Shown in pieces: positions 3,922-11,658 of a stretch of 32,730 nucleotides of DNA. Position 1 is the first letter of the stretch, and each line of letters starts with the position of its first letter. The translations under genes and the position numbers were made by a program. The notes beneath the pieces are model-generated. The model saw nothing but the letters and a program-made list of their open reading frames with translations. It did no database searches and had not been told where the DNA came from. The DNA comes from a virus. Where the stretch lies: positions 1 through 32,730 of the IMG/VR virus record IMGVR_UViG_3300030339_000160. One strand, given 5' to 3'.

Positions 3922-4384
3922 GATAGGCCTCCATTGTGTTGTGTTGATCTGATTTCTTGAGATGCGTAATCGCAGACATGATTTTTCCCACTTGGGACTT
4001 CTCTATCCAGTTTGTCGATACGATGCCGAATTTGTTTTTGATGAAGACAGTAAAGGCGATCTGTTTTTCATGCAGTGTCGGCATGAACGAGCGTTGCACG
4101 AATGCAGCCTCAAGCATGCGCAACTGCACTGGTGTCGCGTAGTTGCTGTCTCGATCAGCCAGTTCGGAAAAGCGAGTGGGCTTTTTCTTGTTCACCTCAG
4201 TGCGAGGCAATTTGCGCATCAGGGCTGCGCAAAGTGATCGAGCCTGTTCATCAGACAAAGCCTTGCTTGAATCGACACCGAAATTATCGCGTAGCATGTC
4301 TCGATACTGCTCGTCAGTCATACGAAGCCGATGAGCCAAGGCATGGATGGTGCGCGTGTATGCTGATGATTGTGGAGTCATCAT
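3914..4384 (-). CDS. gemA: GemA-like protein (DUF1018, Mu gp16 family)
   Basis: 156 residues from the ATG at 4384, which overlaps the MuB-type stop as TAATG. A longer frame upstream would only re-read that gene. The N-terminal helix pair (IHALAHRLRMTDEQYRDML, then ALSDEQARSLCAAL) and the C-terminal part (ATPVQLRMLEA ... FIKNKFGI ... WIEKSQVGKIMSAI) match DUF1018. In Mu, GemA modulates host gene expression and DNA topology early in infection. Context directly after B and before DUF3164 supports the call. Confidence 0.85.
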   Translation of the reverse strand: MMTPQSSAYTRTIHALAHRLRMTDEQYRDMLRDNFGVDSSKALSDEQARSLCAALMRKLPRTEVNKKKPTRFSELADRDSNYATPVQLRMLEAAFVQRSFMPTLHEKQIAFTVFIKNKFGIVSTNWIEKSQVGKIMSAITHLKKSDQHNTMEAYHG

Positions 4385-5286
4385 TACCGTGCCACCGTGA
4401 TGAGAGATCTTGCTTGTTCGATCACGTCGATGCTCAACGGAATGTTGTTGTTCGTCATCAAACGGACGCACCAACGAACCAGTTTTGACAGGACACGTGC
4501 GTTGCGCTTACTTTCTTTTGCCAAGATGGACGCCATCTCAGATGTCAATTCAGGTATTGACTTTGATGCAATCAACTCTACGTCGGGATCAGTGAGTCCA
4601 TCTATGCGGCAGAAGGCTCCCAGTCGGCTCAGTATCTGCGCGAAGTGCGTCATGTCACCTGTAATGTTCTTCTGCAAGCGAGGTAGGCCTGCTAGGATTA
4701 CGCCAATGCCTGCCTTGTCATGTAGCCTTCTTATCGATTCCAAAGCCTTGATAGGCAAGTGCTCCGCTTCATCGATGATGATCAGGCGTCCTGAGTCTTC
4801 TAGCTTCTCGATTGCACGGGTAATCAGGTCGTGCAGGTTCCCCTTGGTCTCCAAGCCAAGCTTGTCGTTGATTTCTTGGAACAGGATGCGTGCTGTATAT
4901 CCATCGTCAGCCTCAACCATGATGCAACTCTTATGGTGCTTCATGAATTCCTTGAGGCTTGTGGTCTTTCCAAATCCAGCAGGGCCAATCAGCAAACCAA
5001 ACTCGCTGTCTCGCAAAACCAGTCCGCAGAACTGCCGGATAGAGCGGAATGCGGAAGTCTCCACCACCATTACCTTAGTTGGTGACTTTTGCGAACGCTC
5101 TTTGACGGTTTCCAGATATTCCACGACACGTTCGTTGACCTGCTCTACGCTTCCTTTGTACGTACCATTGAGCCATGTACTTAGGGCTGAGGGACTGATG
5201 CCGATTGCCGAGGCCACCTTGTTTTGCGATGTTCCTGTCGCTTCGATGTGGGCATTGATCTTGTCGATGATAGTCAGTTGTTCCAT
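4384..5286 (-). CDS. B: MuB-type AAA+ transposition ATPase
   Basis: 300 residues. Residues 15-42 form a helix-turn-helix (QNKVASAIGISPSALSTWLN). Walker A is GPAGFGKTT (101-109) and Walker B is LIIIDEAEH (168-176), with a LAGLP sensor-like strand near 218. The C-terminal region is basic and helical. MuB proteins bind target DNA as ATP-dependent filaments, attract and activate the transposase, and give target immunity. The gene has AGGAG upstream, 20 bp after A, the classic A-B order of transposable phages. All catalytic motifs look intact. Confidence 0.93.
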   Translation of the reverse strand: MEQLTIIDKINAHIEATGTSQNKVASAIGISPSALSTWLNGTYKGSVEQVNERVVEYLETVKERSQKSPTKVMVVETSAFRSIRQFCGLVLRDSEFGLLIGPAGFGKTTSLKEFMKHHKSCIMVEADDGYTARILFQEINDKLGLETKGNLHDLITRAIEKLEDSGRLIIIDEAEHLPIKALESIRRLHDKAGIGVILAGLPRLQKNITGDMTHFAQILSRLGAFCRIDGLTDPDVELIASKSIPELTSEMASILAKESKRNARVLSKLVRWCVRLMTNNNIPLSIDVIEQARSLITVAR

Positions 5287-5306: not shown

Positions 5307-7262
5307 TTAAGCGTGTCTTGCGTATGGGACTTCATCTTCCCATGTGAATAGGGGTTTCTTTGGCTCACTATCTACGATGAGACCTGTCAGGTCATTTCTG
5401 CCTGCCTTGCGGTCTTCCGTGAGCGTGGCCATGTCGTAATCATGCGATGTGACCATGAGGCCACCCGCGGGGATATTGATTTCCGTGCGCCCAAGGGCAG
5501 AGCGCAATGACGAGAGCAGCTCATGTGATTCGTCACGGTTTGTTTCGGGCAAAAGCTCCTTGAGCAGCTTGCGCTCACGTGCCTTGCGGGCTTGTCCTTC
5601 TGCCACCATCGTTTTCCCAACCACGTCCTCTGGACTTACCAGCGCGTCCACGGCCTGAATCAGTTGGGCTTCGCCTAGCAGTGTGCCATCAGAAGCAAAG
5701 GCCTGCGCAACGCGGAGATCCTCGGGATCATAGCGCAGCGTGATCTCGCGACCCTTGTAAACCGGCATGAACTCAGCCCAGTACCAGCAATCCAGCTCGA
5801 CGAGGCGGAACCCACGATGGTGGATGCGCCCAGACGCCGTGCGGGTGGTGAGCATACGTGCAGTTTCGGGCGTGACCCTGCGCATTGGGTGTTCTGATAT
5901 CAAAGCGTTCCACAACTGCGCACGTGTCTTGCCTTCGTGGTGCTTGCCTTGGCAGGGCATATTTGCGAACACGTCGAGCAGATAGGTGTCCACCATATCC
6001 TTGAACTCGGCGAAGTCGGGATAGATGCCCGCCTTCAGGTTGGCTTTCAGCTTCTCTGGCTTCTCGGCCACCGAGCCACCCTTGTAGCTTGGGAAAAGTT
6101 TATCAAAGCTGTTCTTGATCACTAGGAACTGCCGCTCAATGATCTTTGCACGTGCGTTCTTTACCACTGCAAAGTGGATGCGAAAACCCAGTCTGGACGC
6201 AAGGCTCTCCGCCCGCTGCTCGTCTTCGCAAATCCTGTGGCCTCGGGTCTGTCCTGAGAAATCCTTGTTGCGGTATTCGCGCCCATTGTCTAGGTACAGG
6301 TCATCGGGCAGGCCATATGTCTCAATGCCTCGCCTGATTGCACGTAGTGTGTTGTCCGTGCAGGGGTCTGATGTATGCACATGCCATCCCATTGGAAGGT
6401 ACGAGCGCATGTCGAGAAAGAGCGTGATGTAGCATGTTGCGGGAGCATCTTGTCCAGGGACTCGCACGAACACGTCCCATGTACGGGTGTCACCGACCCA
6501 GCATTGCCCCACAGGCAAGTTCGAGTAGTCGCGTTCAAGGTGGATGCCGTAACGATCCTCGAACGGTTTCTGGCCATAGCGGGCATGGAATATTGTTGCT
6601 GGTGCCAACTCTTTCTTGAGCCTGCGCTCGAAGGCGTGGAGGCTTGGGAATGTATTGTCATCAACATCATCACCAGCATCCTTAGCCCTGCCAAGAGCAA
6701 TCGTGCGGCAGAGCCATGCAGACCGCAGGTCTTGGGTCAGGTAGGCGTCCTTGAAGTAGTCGAACCAGCTATCGAGGACGGTTGACTTCCATGTTGTGGA
6801 TGTCCGTAGCAACGCATCTCTGCCTTCGCTTCGAACCAACGTCCGCACTCGATAGAGGCTTTTCGCACTCGTTGCCATGTCTGGGTTCACGCGGTTCCAG
6901 TTGCGCACCCAACTGCCTAGTTCCGCTGTGCCGACAACACCTGCGGAGCGGCTCAGGATCAGTGACCATTTATCGAAATAATTTTTGATTCGGGTCGGGG
7001 CGTTGTCGTAGGCGCGGCGAATGCTTTCGGTGTCTTCAACGACGACGTTCACCTCGGGAATCTCTGGCAGGTTTGCGCGGCTCCACGATTCTTGCGCCGT
7101 GGTGGGTAGCGATGATACTAGGATCTCGCTGCGAAGGCCTCCAGGGGCTCCTTTGGCGGGAACTTGGCGTGTCTCGTACTTGTGCAGCGCCATACGGACT
7201 GCTCGCTCCGTTATGCCCAGATGCTCGGCGGCCTCTTCGATTGGTATCCAGAGGTCTCTCAT
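5307..7262 (-). CDS. A: Mu-type DDE transposase (MuA homologue)
   Basis: 651 residues, close to MuA's 663. The N-terminal Mu-type HTH (residues 5-35, IPIEEAAEHLGITERAVR) binds sites at the element ends or enhancer. Residues 85-240 are the helical end-binding region. The RNase H-fold core keeps the triad: D258 in VGDTRTWD, D325 in YLDNGREY, E376 in AKIIERQF. The C-terminal part carries the Mu-transposase beta-barrel and a basic tail likely to contact B. It catalyses strand transfer for integration and replicative transposition. The start has GGGAGGA upstream and overlaps the preceding mini-gene by ATGA. Nothing suggests inactivation. Confidence 0.96.
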   Translation of the reverse strand: MRDLWIPIEEAAEHLGITERAVRMALHKYETRQVPAKGAPGGLRSEILVSSLPTTAQESWSRANLPEIPEVNVVVEDTESIRRAYDNAPTRIKNYFDKWSLILSRSAGVVGTAELGSWVRNWNRVNPDMATSAKSLYRVRTLVRSEGRDALLRTSTTWKSTVLDSWFDYFKDAYLTQDLRSAWLCRTIALGRAKDAGDDVDDNTFPSLHAFERRLKKELAPATIFHARYGQKPFEDRYGIHLERDYSNLPVGQCWVGDTRTWDVFVRVPGQDAPATCYITLFLDMRSYLPMGWHVHTSDPCTDNTLRAIRRGIETYGLPDDLYLDNGREYRNKDFSGQTRGHRICEDEQRAESLASRLGFRIHFAVVKNARAKIIERQFLVIKNSFDKLFPSYKGGSVAEKPEKLKANLKAGIYPDFAEFKDMVDTYLLDVFANMPCQGKHHEGKTRAQLWNALISEHPMRRVTPETARMLTTRTASGRIHHRGFRLVELDCWYWAEFMPVYKGREITLRYDPEDLRVAQAFASDGTLLGEAQLIQAVDALVSPEDVVGKTMVAEGQARKARERKLLKELLPETNRDESHELLSSLRSALGRTEINIPAGGLMVTSHDYDMATLTEDRKAGRNDLTGLIVDSEPKKPLFTWEDEVPYARHA

Positions 7263-7956: not shown

Positions 7957-8188
7957 TCATCACCTCTCCGTTGATTACTCTTCTGTCTTTTCCGATAGCC
8001 ATGTCAATGCCTACGATCACAACGATTCCCGGCATCAATGTTCCGAGGTAACATGCGCCACGGCCTCCTTTCTTGTGTTGCCATCCGCATGAACATTTAT
8101 CCTTTGCTTGTCCATTGCCGCCCCTGGTGCATTCGGAACAGTCAACACATAACCTTTTTGATGAGTCATAAAATGAATGGATCTTCAT
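7937..8188 (-). CDS. Small Cys-rich protein, function unknown
   Basis: 83 residues from the ATG at 8188, which has GGGAG upstream and overlaps the previous stop by ATGA. Cysteines 14, 17, 20, 32, 34 and 46 make a dense cluster (LCVDCSEC, then CSC) likely to bind a metal. A hydrophobic stretch (LMPGIVVIVGIDMAIG, 51-66) follows. No family recognised. It belongs to the early region between the dNTP hydrolase and the exonuclease, where phages keep small host-takeover proteins. Confidence 0.55.
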   Translation of the reverse strand: MKIHSFYDSSKRLCVDCSECTRGGNGQAKDKCSCGWQHKKGGRGACYLGTLMPGIVVIVGIDMAIGKDRRVINGEVMNETHHA

Positions 8189-8622
8189 CGTACATTCTCC
8201 CGGATATGCTCGATAGCCTTGCCCGGAGCTGCCGTGTGCCAATCGGACAACTTTCGGTTTTCATTAACGGTCTGCTTCCTCTGAAGCTCGGCTATAATCT
8301 CTTCTGGCGTATAGCCACAGCGTATGGCTCCATCAAAGGCCAGGATAATGATGTCTGTCCATTCTTCGATGAGACCTCTAGAATTAATGACCTCGTCCAT
8401 CTCCTTTTTGATGTGATCCAGAATCCCGTAGGTGCGGTTTCCTAGGCCGAAAGTTTTTTCAGAGAAAAGGATTTGACGATATAGGTGTGAAAGCAAACTG
8501 AATTCAGGTGGGTCACTTTCTTTCGGGGTTAGAACTTCAGCGAGTTCTATTAAAAGTGTCTGAGCGTGTGCTTCGACAAGGCTTTGCACCGCCATTCGTA
8601 CGTTGGCATAATTCTTTTCCAT
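8185..8622 (-). CDS. MazZ/DUF550-like dATP/dGTP diphosphohydrolase
   Basis: 145 residues. The DUF550 core is clear: the EKTFGLGNRT segment (55-64), HIKKEMDEV with E74 and E77, EEWTDIIILAFDG with E87 and D90, and the closing WHTAAPGKAIEHIRE. These acidic residues are the MazG-type magnesium site for cleaving dNTPs to dNMP and PPi. DUF550 enzymes are frequent in temperate and Mu-like phages; some (MazZ) support 2-aminoadenine genomes, but no PurZ-like gene is present here. CAGGAG precedes the ATG. The first 86 bp overlap the upstream gene. Confidence 0.85.
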   Translation of the reverse strand: MEKNYANVRMAVQSLVEAHAQTLLIELAEVLTPKESDPPEFSLLSHLYRQILFSEKTFGLGNRTYGILDHIKKEMDEVINSRGLIEEWTDIIILAFDGAIRCGYTPEEIIAELQRKQTVNENRKLSDWHTAAPGKAIEHIRENVR

Positions 8623-9089: not shown

Positions 9090-9802
9090 GCCACCTCCTC
9101 GAAGTATTTGCTTACGATGTAGCCCAAGAAGTCTTTCTCAGTCGCGAACTCAATCCCTTCCTTGGATAGACGTGCACGCTCTTCACCAAGTTTTGCCGCG
9201 ACTGGCTTTTCGAACTCCATCTTGAAGTGGGTTGGGAAAAAGTCGAGCTGCTCATACAGCGCCTTTTCTTTGGCCTTCGCAGCATCTATGATGGCTTGGC
9301 CTTCGGGTGATGGGTTCAGCTTGCGGGAATTGTATTTGCCGTTGTGCCGCAGGCTGACCAAAACGACTTCATACACCCAGCGCTCAAACGCCTTGGCCTG
9401 CGGCTTCTCTGAATTAGTGATCAAGCGATAAAGGTCGGGCTCGCTGATGAACAGAATCATCTGCTGGCCACCATTGGTACGAATCTTTCTCTTAAGTGTG
9501 TATTTGCTGCAATGATTGGCGATGGCATCGGAGCTATTCTGATACCCGAGAATGGAGCATACGTCTGCCGCCTTGAACCAGAACTGACCTGTTGAATCGG
9601 TTACGCGGCCTAGTGTCTTGTCTGACCATACCAGTTGGCGATAGTCGTTGACTAACTCGACCTGGACTGGTTCCGGGTAGACAAAATCAGCGGGTAGCTC
9701 AAATGACTCGGAATCCCGTTGGGCGGGGTGCAAAGGGTATAGCGTTTCGCTATACCCTTTGGTGGCTACGAGGGCGTTTTTTGAGGGTGTTTTTGTGGTC
9801 AT
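9086..9802 (-). CDS. BRO-N domain protein (antirepressor type)
   Basis: 238 residues from the ATG at 9802, behind AGGAGGAGG; a longer upstream frame merely re-reads the previous gene. Residues 60-155 carry the BRO-N pattern: WFKAADVCSILGYQNSSDAI, then FISEPDLYRLITNSEKPQA and FERWVYEVVLVSLR. BRO-N proteins bind DNA and often act as antirepressors. The C-terminal 80 residues are helical and charged. The N-terminal 45 residues are poorly conserved in character and contain a perfect 14-bp hairpin in the DNA. As the second gene of the early operon it could help switch the phage from lysogeny to lytic growth. Confidence 0.82.
   Translation of the reverse strand: MTTKTPSKNALVATKGYSETLYPLHPAQRDSESFELPADFVYPEPVQVELVNDYRQLVWSDKTLGRVTDSTGQFWFKAADVCSILGYQNSSDAIANHCSKYTLKRKIRTNGGQQMILFISEPDLYRLITNSEKPQAKAFERWVYEVVLVSLRHNGKYNSRKLNPSPEGQAIIDAAKAKEKALYEQLDFFPTHFKMEFEKPVAAKLGEERARLSKEGIEFATEKDFLGYIVSKYFEEVA
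9731..9761 (-). repeat. Perfect 14-bp inverted repeat within the BRO gene
   Basis: CAAAGGGTATAGCG (9731-9744) and CGCTATACCCTTTG (9748-9761) are exact reverse complements around TTT. It lies about 42-72 nt into the BRO coding sequence. In the mRNA it would form a 14-bp hairpin with a 3-base loop. Function is unknown: an attenuator, a protein-binding site or an inserted element are possible. Confidence 0.85.
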
Positions 9803-10004: not shown

Positions 10005-10032
10005 ATTATGTTTCATTTGTGGTGGTGGTTAA
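10005..10032 (-). promoter_or_regulatory. Candidate leftward early promoter
   Basis: On the minus strand, TTAACC (10032-10027) and CATAAT (10010-10005) are spaced by 16 bp, a fair match to the sigma70 consensus. They lie just upstream of the first early gene. The -35 overlaps a TAACAC operator half-site, so the repressor could block it. Confidence 0.5.
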
Positions 10033-10058
10033 CACCACTACATAACACAATCTAAAAC
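10029..10058 (+). promoter_or_regulatory. Candidate repressor promoter
   Basis: TTAACA (10029-10034) and TAAAAC (10053-10058) are spaced by 18 bp. The -35 overlaps the -35 of the opposing early promoter, so the two would compete. The predicted start lies only a few bases before the TTG start of the repressor, implying a very short leader. Confidence 0.4.
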
Positions 10059-10083
10059 ACAGGTAACACATTGTCAAGTGTTA
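10030..10083. promoter_or_regulatory. Operator cluster of TAACAC half-sites
   Basis: TAACAC occurs at 10030-10035, 10043-10048 and 10064-10069, and as its complement GTGTTA at 10078-10083. The last two make an inverted pair with an 8-bp spacer over the repressor start. The same half-site forms a perfect palindrome inside the repressor gene. This is the expected position for repressor/Ner control. Confidence 0.6.
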
Positions 10084-10655
10084 TTGAAAAAAATGTTTTA
10101 TTGAATGATTTAGCGAAAGTCAGGTCATTTGGTATGGAACGCTATGGATCAATGAAGAGTTTTGCCAAAGATCTAGGCATATCTCCTCAAAATTTGAACT
10201 CATATTTGAAAGGTGAGAGGCGCTTTGGAGCAAAACAACTGCAACGCTTAAATTCTATAGGCTTTGATTTGGCTCAACTCCAATATTCAAATAAGCATAA
10301 TGTGTTATCTGATAACACTAATATTGTACAGCAAGTCGCACAATCAATGACTCCTCCGAGTATTTTCCCCGACATAAAACGCGCTTGCCGTTTGATGTCG
10401 TGTGAACCTGCAGACATAGCGCGTGGAGTTGGCGCGGATCCTTCTGTAGGGGAGGCATGGGCTGACGGAAATGATCGCCCAACTTATGATCAGCTGGCGA
10501 GTCTATATCACCAAGTGCTTGCTTTAGCTTTGCATTGCTGTGGTGAGGCCACTCCTAAAAACCTTTCTGCCTATGAATTGATGCAGGTAAAAGCCGTCCT
10601 CGCGCTCCATCAAAAAGAATCCGAGGCTCCGTCTACCGAGACGAATGTGGGATGA
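10071..10655 (+). CDS. cI-like phage repressor with two HTH-like regions
   Basis: 194 residues from a TTG at 10071; no ATG occurs before residue 22, and only a weak CAGG precedes the TTG, so the exact start is uncertain. Residues 27-52 form a clear helix-turn-helix (SMKSFAKDLGISPQNLNSYLKGE). Residues 105-145 (ADIARGVGADPSVGEAWADG, then YDQLASLY) read as a second HTH-like region. There is no S24 peptidase domain, so it is not a self-cleaving CI/LexA protein and would need an antirepressor or proteolysis for release. It reads away from the early operon, as Mu c does. Confidence 0.8.
   Translation: MSSVIEKNVLLNDLAKVRSFGMERYGSMKSFAKDLGISPQNLNSYLKGERRFGAKQLQRLNSIGFDLAQLQYSNKHNVLSDNTNIVQQVAQSMTPPSIFPDIKRACRLMSCEPADIARGVGADPSVGEAWADGNDRPTYDQLASLYHQVLALALHCCGEATPKNLSAYELMQVKAVLALHQKESEAPSTETNVG
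10302..10318. promoter_or_regulatory. Perfect 17-bp palindrome within the repressor gene
   Basis: GTGTTATC (10302-10309), T, GATAACAC (10311-10318): an exact 8-bp inverted repeat with a 1-bp centre. It shares the TAACAC half-site with the control region, so it is a likely intragenic operator for autoregulation or looping. Confidence 0.65.
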
Positions 10656-10698: not shown

Positions 10699-11658
10699 TT
10701 GAAAAATCCAGGGAAAAAACTAGTAGCAAAGCTTGAGCGATTTGATGCCGCAGAACCCATAGCAATGAATAAGTTCGGGGTAGTAAAATACAAGAATAAA
10801 GCCGCATTGAAATGGCATGATAAACTCAATCTTTGGGCTTGGCTTTTTGGTCCTCTCTATTACTTCTACCAAGGCCTCTTCGCTAAAGGCATTGCCCTCA
10901 CTGGATTCATACTCATAATCTATGGAATCATGTGTAGCATTCTGTTGACTTTCGGGATTGATGCATATTCTAAATCAGCACCTGCGACGGGAGCGATCTT
11001 CGCTGCATATGCTAATATCGACATTTGGAAATTGCACCGGAATCGGGAAATATTCTGGCCTGCCATTTCCTATTTCAGAGGAGCGCGTAGTGTTGCAATA
11101 TTGCTCTTTGGCTTTATTGCGTTGTTTCTTTGTGAAATGCAAGTTGAAGCACTCAAAAATAATCGTTCCTTTTCTGAGGAAATGACTGAGACGTTTAAGA
11201 CAGAGCCTTCGCAGGTTGATTCTACTGCAATGCGAAAATTATTCACTGCCGATATCGATCGGTTGTTTCGTGTCGAAGAACGTGAGAGCGCGGTTATTAA
11301 CGCCATCGGTGTCGCAAATGAAAAGATCAGCAAAGGACAAGGAGACGTATATGAGACTGTCATCATTGTACGTAACGCTCAAGCATCTATTGACCGTATG
11401 ATTTCTGGATATCTTCAATACACTCCAAGCAACGAGTTGCCTAGCGACATTCAAGATTCACTTTCGCGAATTGCAAAAGTTATGGCTCAGGGATCTCAAC
11501 GGCGTAAAGACGGAATGGTTTCATATGAAAAGTTCCTAAATGACCAAAGACCTAGCGACTTAGCGGATATGAATAGCTCATTTGAATCGTATCAGGCTGC
11601 CGGAATTCAAGTCGGCTCTATGATTGGCCAATTGAAAACGATTTTGGGAATTAATTAA
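10699..11658 (+). CDS. DUF2628 membrane protein (cargo gene)
   Basis: 319 residues from a TTG at 10699 with AGGAGAGG upstream. Residues 45-62 (WAWLFGPLYYFYQGLF) and 100-115 (ANIDIWKLHRN) match DUF2628, a family of small integral membrane proteins. Hydrophobic segments lie at about 45-58, 65-88 and 131-147. The C-terminal 170 residues are soluble, helical and charged, longer than usual for the family. It follows the repressor on the same strand, is richer in AT than the phage genes, and is likely expressed in the lysogen. A conversion or superinfection-exclusion role is inference only. Confidence 0.7.
   Translation: MKNPGKKLVAKLERFDAAEPIAMNKFGVVKYKNKAALKWHDKLNLWAWLFGPLYYFYQGLFAKGIALTGFILIIYGIMCSILLTFGIDAYSKSAPATGAIFAAYANIDIWKLHRNREIFWPAISYFRGARSVAILLFGFIALFLCEMQVEALKNNRSFSEEMTETFKTEPSQVDSTAMRKLFTADIDRLFRVEERESAVINAIGVANEKISKGQGDVYETVIIVRNAQASIDRMISGYLQYTPSNELPSDIQDSLSRIAKVMAQGSQRRKDGMVSYEKFLNDQRPSDLADMNSSFESYQAAGIQVGSMIGQLKTILGIN

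Follow-up and report, generated by a model that had tools for sequence, protein, structure and literature searches.

An in-frame hairpin in the Bro-N antirepressor gene of a transposable phage is probably a copy of a selected nucleic-acid element of Bro-N genes

The Bro-N antirepressor gene of a transposable phage carries near its start a perfect hairpin of a kind that, in Bro-N genes, is very probably selected at the nucleotide level and independently of the encoded protein. This conclusion is drawn from three sequence comparisons, namely compensated changes in the related phage L276, a match in the Bro-N gene of another phage (L003), and base pairing throughout the family beyond what the protein needs. 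We thus regard the hairpin as a likely copy of a nucleic-acid element selected inside Bro-N genes, which in this phage group would reside in an N-terminal extension of the protein.

Results

The stretch of viral DNA analysed here (32.7 kb, the window) is that of a transposable, Mu-like phage with the Bro gene in its leftward region (Table 1). The earlier note had described a perfect 14-bp hairpin with a 3-base loop at nt 42–72 of this gene, and coordinates and pairing are confirmed exactly: at 9731–9761 the arms are complementary at 14 of 14 positions, nt 42–72 being counted from the ATG at 9802. No other short-loop inverted repeat of the window is as long, the runner-up among perfect repeats (loop of at most 8 nt) having arms of 10 bp. 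The coding-strand stem reaches −21.7 kcal/mol as RNA and −14.8 as DNA (z about −7), a stability equalled by none of 200 shuffled versions. With its outer stem GGG/CCC, the hairpin shows the Watson-Crick stem of at least 9 bp, the 3-nt loop and the G-run/C-run that characterize the element. A search for other copies of the half-site in the window, allowing up to 2 mismatches, found none.

The host gene matches Pfam family PF02498 (E 1e-23; 84 bits against a curated cut-off of 25.6) as well as several PHROG anti-repressor families, and the hairpin lies in its N-terminal extension, outside the Pfam Bro-N domain. A sequence-based search for a solved structure related to the Bro protein found none. 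Between the divergent genes, at 10018–10077, the repeats TAACACAATCTAAA and TAACACATTGTCAA and an inverted repeat form a probable operator region. Also in the early region, the gene at 8185–8622 encodes a dATP/dGTP pyrophosphohydrolase domain (PF04447) and may serve the nucleotide pool or counter-defence, while a DUF2628 ORF (10699–11658), a possible cargo gene, adjoins the possible repressor gene and is transcribed away from the early operon.

Table 1. Positions of the hairpin, its host gene and neighbouring genes in the window.
Feature	Position	Strand	Remark
Arms on the + strand	9731–9744; 9748–9761	+	CAAAGGGTATAGCG; CGCTATACCCTTTG
5' arm in Bro mRNA	9748–9761	−	coding strand CAAAGGGTATAGCG; first base is CDS nt 42
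Loop	9745–9747	−	coding strand AAA (TTT on +); GAAAC including the closing pair
3' arm in Bro mRNA	9731–9744	−	coding strand CGCTATACCCTTTG
Bro-N antirepressor gene, 238 aa	9086–9802	−	hairpin encodes about residues 15–24 (KGYSETLYPL)
Bro-N domain, residues 67–148	9359–9604	−	Pfam match
Bro-N core place where related genes bear the hairpin (HCSKYTLKRKI)	9482–9514	−	no hairpin in the window
Upstream ORF, 62 aa	9802–9990	−	its stop and the Bro ATG overlap; similar to the L002 ORF at the corresponding place
Divergent ORF	10071–10655	+	weakly HTH-like; possible repressor
rve/Mu-type transposase	5307–7262	−	marks a transposable phage; served to identify the kin L002 and L276
AAA/TniB-like ATPase	4384–5286	−	early-operon context

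We found two related transposable phages, L002 and L276, whose transposases are 53% and 51% identical, respectively, to that of the window. A peptide-pattern search for the window Bro protein in viral_contigs and genome_contigs gave no match, and its kin were reached by alignment only. L276 is the closest relative with the hairpin. Its Bro protein aligns with that of the window over residues 1–237 at 33% identity, and the gene bears a hairpin, AGGGCATACCGAAACGGTATGCCCT, at the matching place of the coding sequence, where a common AAAGGG runs from nt 43 after the ATG in both genes and in the same frame. Both hairpins share the loop GAAAC; the stem counts 14 bp in the window and 11 bp in L276. 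Overall the two genes have 49% DNA identity, and 5 of the 10 hairpin-encoded residues differ; in the hairpin itself 21 of 25 nucleotides are equal, and the 4 differences make up two compensated pairs (T-A to C-G and G-C to C-G). That the window palindrome arose by chance, for which its single copy there might speak, is hardly credible, as about 0.001 cases of 14-nt arms with a loop of 0–8 nt are expected per window, and refuted by the hairpin with compensated changes at the same place in L276. L002 lacks the hairpin segment and shows no comparable hairpin in its N-terminal extension or in its core; in this phage group the hairpin is hence kept as a structure in two of three members. The idea of a small recent insertion, raised in the earlier note, stands as to its form, given the missing segment in L002, but not as to its age, because L276 carries the hairpin with compensated changes.

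Beyond this group, an exact search of 2.9 million viral contigs (viral_contigs) with the 23-nt core GGGTATAGCGNNNCGCTATACCC gave a single match. It lies in L003, within a Bro-N gene belonging to another phage, where it follows HCK in the domain core and is read in a different frame. When the outer pairs are included, the resulting 29-nt hairpin gives no exact match among the viral sequences. A looser hairpin pattern yielded 83 loci, 24 of which lie in Bro-N genes by protein comparison, while the non-Bro matches L016, L071, L073, L081, L084 and L090 look by eye like ordinary terminators. Since these loci had been selected by their palindrome, a second set of 160 Bro-N loci was gathered via peptide patterns outside the hairpin. 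Many of the latter have stems of 8–14 bp at the same core place with very different arms, such as AAGGGGGTAACGAAACGTTACCCCCTT, AAGGGGGTGGCGAAACACCACCCCCTT, GGGTGCAAAAGCTGCACCC, TAAGGGTGCCCTGAAACGGGGCACCCTTA and AAAGGGGGCCGTGAAACACGGCCCCCTTG, and in another codon phase AAAGGGGTGAACGAAACGTTCACCCCTT. Stems thus occur in two codon phases (KGVTKRYPL and KGVNETFTPS), with 2 nt more per arm in L003. Most of the sampled Bro-N genes have it in the domain core, immediately behind the conserved HC; the window copy lies elsewhere and has a loop of the accepted type (GAAAC, or GAATC/GATTC). The sampled loci were ordered by their likeness to a Bro-N protein whose gene bears a hairpin, and all these counts describe the sample rather than prevalence in the whole family. 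Several Gram-positive Bro antirepressors that we checked have no hairpin; together with the close relative L002, they count against the explanation by a selected hairpin of Bro-N genes. The earlier note had held that absence from close homologues without phenotype would refute its proposal, and the absence, as one half of this, applies to L002.

Some further hairpins were observed along the way. A Bro gene of L266 whose core hairpin is imperfect has a second GAAAC hairpin, GACGGTGCCCCGAAACGGGGCACCGTC, in its leader, immediately ahead of the ribosome-binding site (2394–2420, identical in L253). The Bro gene of Microbacterium phage Min1 likewise bears an imperfect core hairpin. The sequence AAGGGGGTATCGATTCGATACCCCCTT, or one close to it, occurs at L083:2139–2165 and in L027, L057 and L066, about 0.85–1 kb upstream of a Bro-N gene that belongs to a different subfamily, and in L083 directly follows the end of a small, putatively Arc-like ORF. 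A short BLAST search against named phages and plasmids returned weak matches, those in Hymenobacter, Paracoccus, MT835874 and Phass-1 having no annotated Bro gene there.

Selection on pairing was tested with a fixed centre at 87 distinct core sites (27-mers) picked by peptides elsewhere in the protein. On average, 8.98 of 12 positions are Watson-Crick paired, compared with 5.58 ± 0.12 (maximum of 300 draws 5.91) when synonymous codons for the same protein are redrawn by Bro-N usage, and 8.10 ± 0.08 (highest of 1000 draws 8.33) when such codons are shuffled within each column; shifting the partner by 1–3 nt leaves 3.8–5.0 pairs. An extended set gave 1574 pairs against 971 ± 15 expected, an excess due in part to the choice of the best centre, because hairpin centres were there taken from the observed sequence; the 87-site test is free of this effect. 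Furthermore, the RNA folding gain over synonymous redraws amounts to −6.6 kcal/mol for the 60-nt region and to −0.1 and −0.6 for the flanking 60-nt segments, and at least 71 pair-to-pair double changes over the twelve pairs were counted on a domain tree built without the hairpin residues. Of the perfect hairpins of at least 9 bp, 20 distinct ones fall at the core place; within 1.5 kb, no other 150-nt bin holds more than 5. The supposition that such symmetry in coding DNA is selected is thereby supported, as the arms change in compensated pairs both in L276 and in the Bro-N core hairpins, and do not vary freely at third codon positions.

It could be argued that the peptide KGxxxxxxPL is what is selected, with the palindrome as a by-product of its codons, and the core peptide KGV[TA]KRYPL is indeed conserved across many Bro-N genes. 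We consider this very improbable: redraws that keep the protein lose pairing, which already refutes it for most of the pairing, and the hairpin is kept in other codon phases and with unrelated peptides, those of the window and L276 differing at half their residues. Within the core, an amino-acid coupling between the two ends of the motif, K..PL versus R..PI, mirrors the base pairing of AAG/CTT versus CGT/ATC.

As to the strand on which the hairpin acts, GAAAC is the commonest coding-strand loop at strong core sites (74 of 131, with GTTTC at 2 of 131), and the N-terminal copies of the window and L276 as well as the leader copy of L266 also have GAAAC on the sense strand. This polarity favours a sense-strand hairpin, that is, one in mRNA; in the main codon phase AAA encodes Lys, so that the polarity there may partly reflect protein constraint. 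Observed folding energies are nearly the same for sense and antisense, so that the excess of folding gain on the sense strand is a difference between the nulls. In the extended set, G-U pairs (124 against 258 expected) and A-C mismatches (91 against 203) are reduced to the same fraction of the null. If selection were on mRNA only, G-U should be spared over A-C; their equal loss speaks somewhat against a purely mRNA explanation and would fit a DNA palindrome or a case in which both strands matter. Weighing the loop polarity against the absence of a G-U preference, we tentatively lean towards an mRNA mechanism for the Bro-N hairpin, about which considerable doubt persists, and hold a DNA site to be possible though rather unlikely.

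Such a DNA site would be a palindrome bound as duplex or cruciform, most simply by the gene's own Bro protein, serving autoregulation or as a cognate self-recognition mark. The strictly Watson-Crick pairing is in line with this, and the Bro genes of one phage bear different arms, as cognate self-recognition would permit (in the L003 contig of 48,998 bases there are three Bro-N genes, and in the two whose sequences were read the hairpin arms differ). Yet the spacing of G-run and C-run differs, by eye, between about 13 and 17 nt, and a fixed dimer on duplex DNA would cope poorly with such variation; moreover, the loop has a strand polarity, and the window has no second half-site copy.

Discussion

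Several known kinds of element were compared with the window hairpin. An intrinsic terminator was rejected, as no T-run is present (CACCCC follows the stem on the coding strand and GTGGCTA on the other), and the terminator listing of the window has none with the 9731–9761 stem. A search of the window against Rfam at gathering score gave no family match. The P1 and P7 c4 RNAs and the P22 sar RNA exert antisense control on phage ant genes, using hairpins as pairing sites, and act at the leader or translation start. They provide a precedent for RNA-level control of an antirepressor, whereas the window hairpin lies inside the coding sequence; no antisense RNA was found here. Rickettsia palindromic elements (RPE) are in-frame palindromes in coding genes, much longer and dispersed in many unrelated genes of one genome; the Bro-N hairpin is also in-frame, but is about 25–31 nt long, found in one gene family and covarying in its arms. 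A dispersed repeat (REP, MITE or RPE) was also rejected, there being one copy in the window record and 0–1 of the core type per genome.

The internal activation sequence or operator enhancer of Mu is a cluster of repressor and transposase sites between the repressor and the early promoter. The window likewise belongs to a transposable phage and the hairpin to its early-region DNA; in contrast to Mu, there is a single palindrome inside the coding sequence of the second early gene, away from the presumed operator region, and repeats are found instead at 10043–10077. A transposition enhancer of this sort, which the earlier note had put forward, is further unsupported in that such hairpins occur in the Bro genes of many phages and bacteria and also in the L003 record, where no relative of the window transposase was found.

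A role in recombination or mobility, with the hairpin as a hot spot or as a small mobile palindrome that enters antirepressor genes or reshuffles them, appears improbable, even if presence and absence, a changed place among relatives, and the copies and arrays that some contigs (L061 and L064) have outside Bro genes agree with it. Of 23 genomes with Bro genes, 7 contain the strict pattern, each a single time, as does 1 of 398 Pseudomonadota genomes, which is also one of the 23; the arms, moreover, diverge with compensation, whereas those of a mobile family would stay identical. In the two contigs named, differing GGGGT..ACCCC hairpins are clustered outside Bro genes, about 50 nt apart or as a loose array (L061:7555–7700 and L064:950–1240).

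Another short element at the beginning of a phage gene is aba of bstA from prophage BTP1, which acts on the product of its own gene (PMC8585504). Its 63 bp span the start codon and carry essential CCCGCC direct repeats at the ends; bstA itself serves abortive infection and encodes a KilA-N-like domain (PMC8585504). Like the window element, aba is short, overlaps the beginning of a coding sequence and belongs to a phage gene whose N-terminal domain resembles DNA-binding ones. The window element differs, being an inverted repeat from nt 42 on, wholly within the coding sequence and devoid of terminal CCCGCC direct repeats, in a gene of the Bro-N rather than a KilA-N-like family; an aba-like element was thus not recognized. 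Still, aba functions as DNA and is cognate to the protein of its gene (PMC8585504), which speaks for the DNA site discussed above.

Returning to the mRNA mechanism, we infer that the hairpin would act in cis, on the sense strand, in the antirepressor mRNA. It may be bound there by a regulator, which could be the Bro protein itself, or be a target of antisense pairing, processing or pausing, and would set the amount of antirepressor made when the prophage switches. The hairpin may also be an attenuator or a translation control of the antirepressor, as the earlier note had suggested. More speculatively, and with rather low probability, Bro-N genes of phages and bacteria might each carry a cognate hairpin, kept by compensated change, that the protein of the same gene recognizes in mRNA or in DNA, such that the gene would combine a regulator with its recognition mark, and the mark would be able to move within the gene as the protein changes.

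Bro-N genes are widespread in phages, yet the action and control of their products are poorly known. Our literature search, limited to open-licence papers, found no published description of the Bro-N hairpin, and the sequence comparisons point to a hidden control element, seemingly not described before, in a switch gene common among phages. Base pairing may also explain the odd protein coupling of K..PL versus R..PI. An in-frame hairpin kept by dozens of compensated changes offers a testable handle on antirepressor synthesis and prophage induction.
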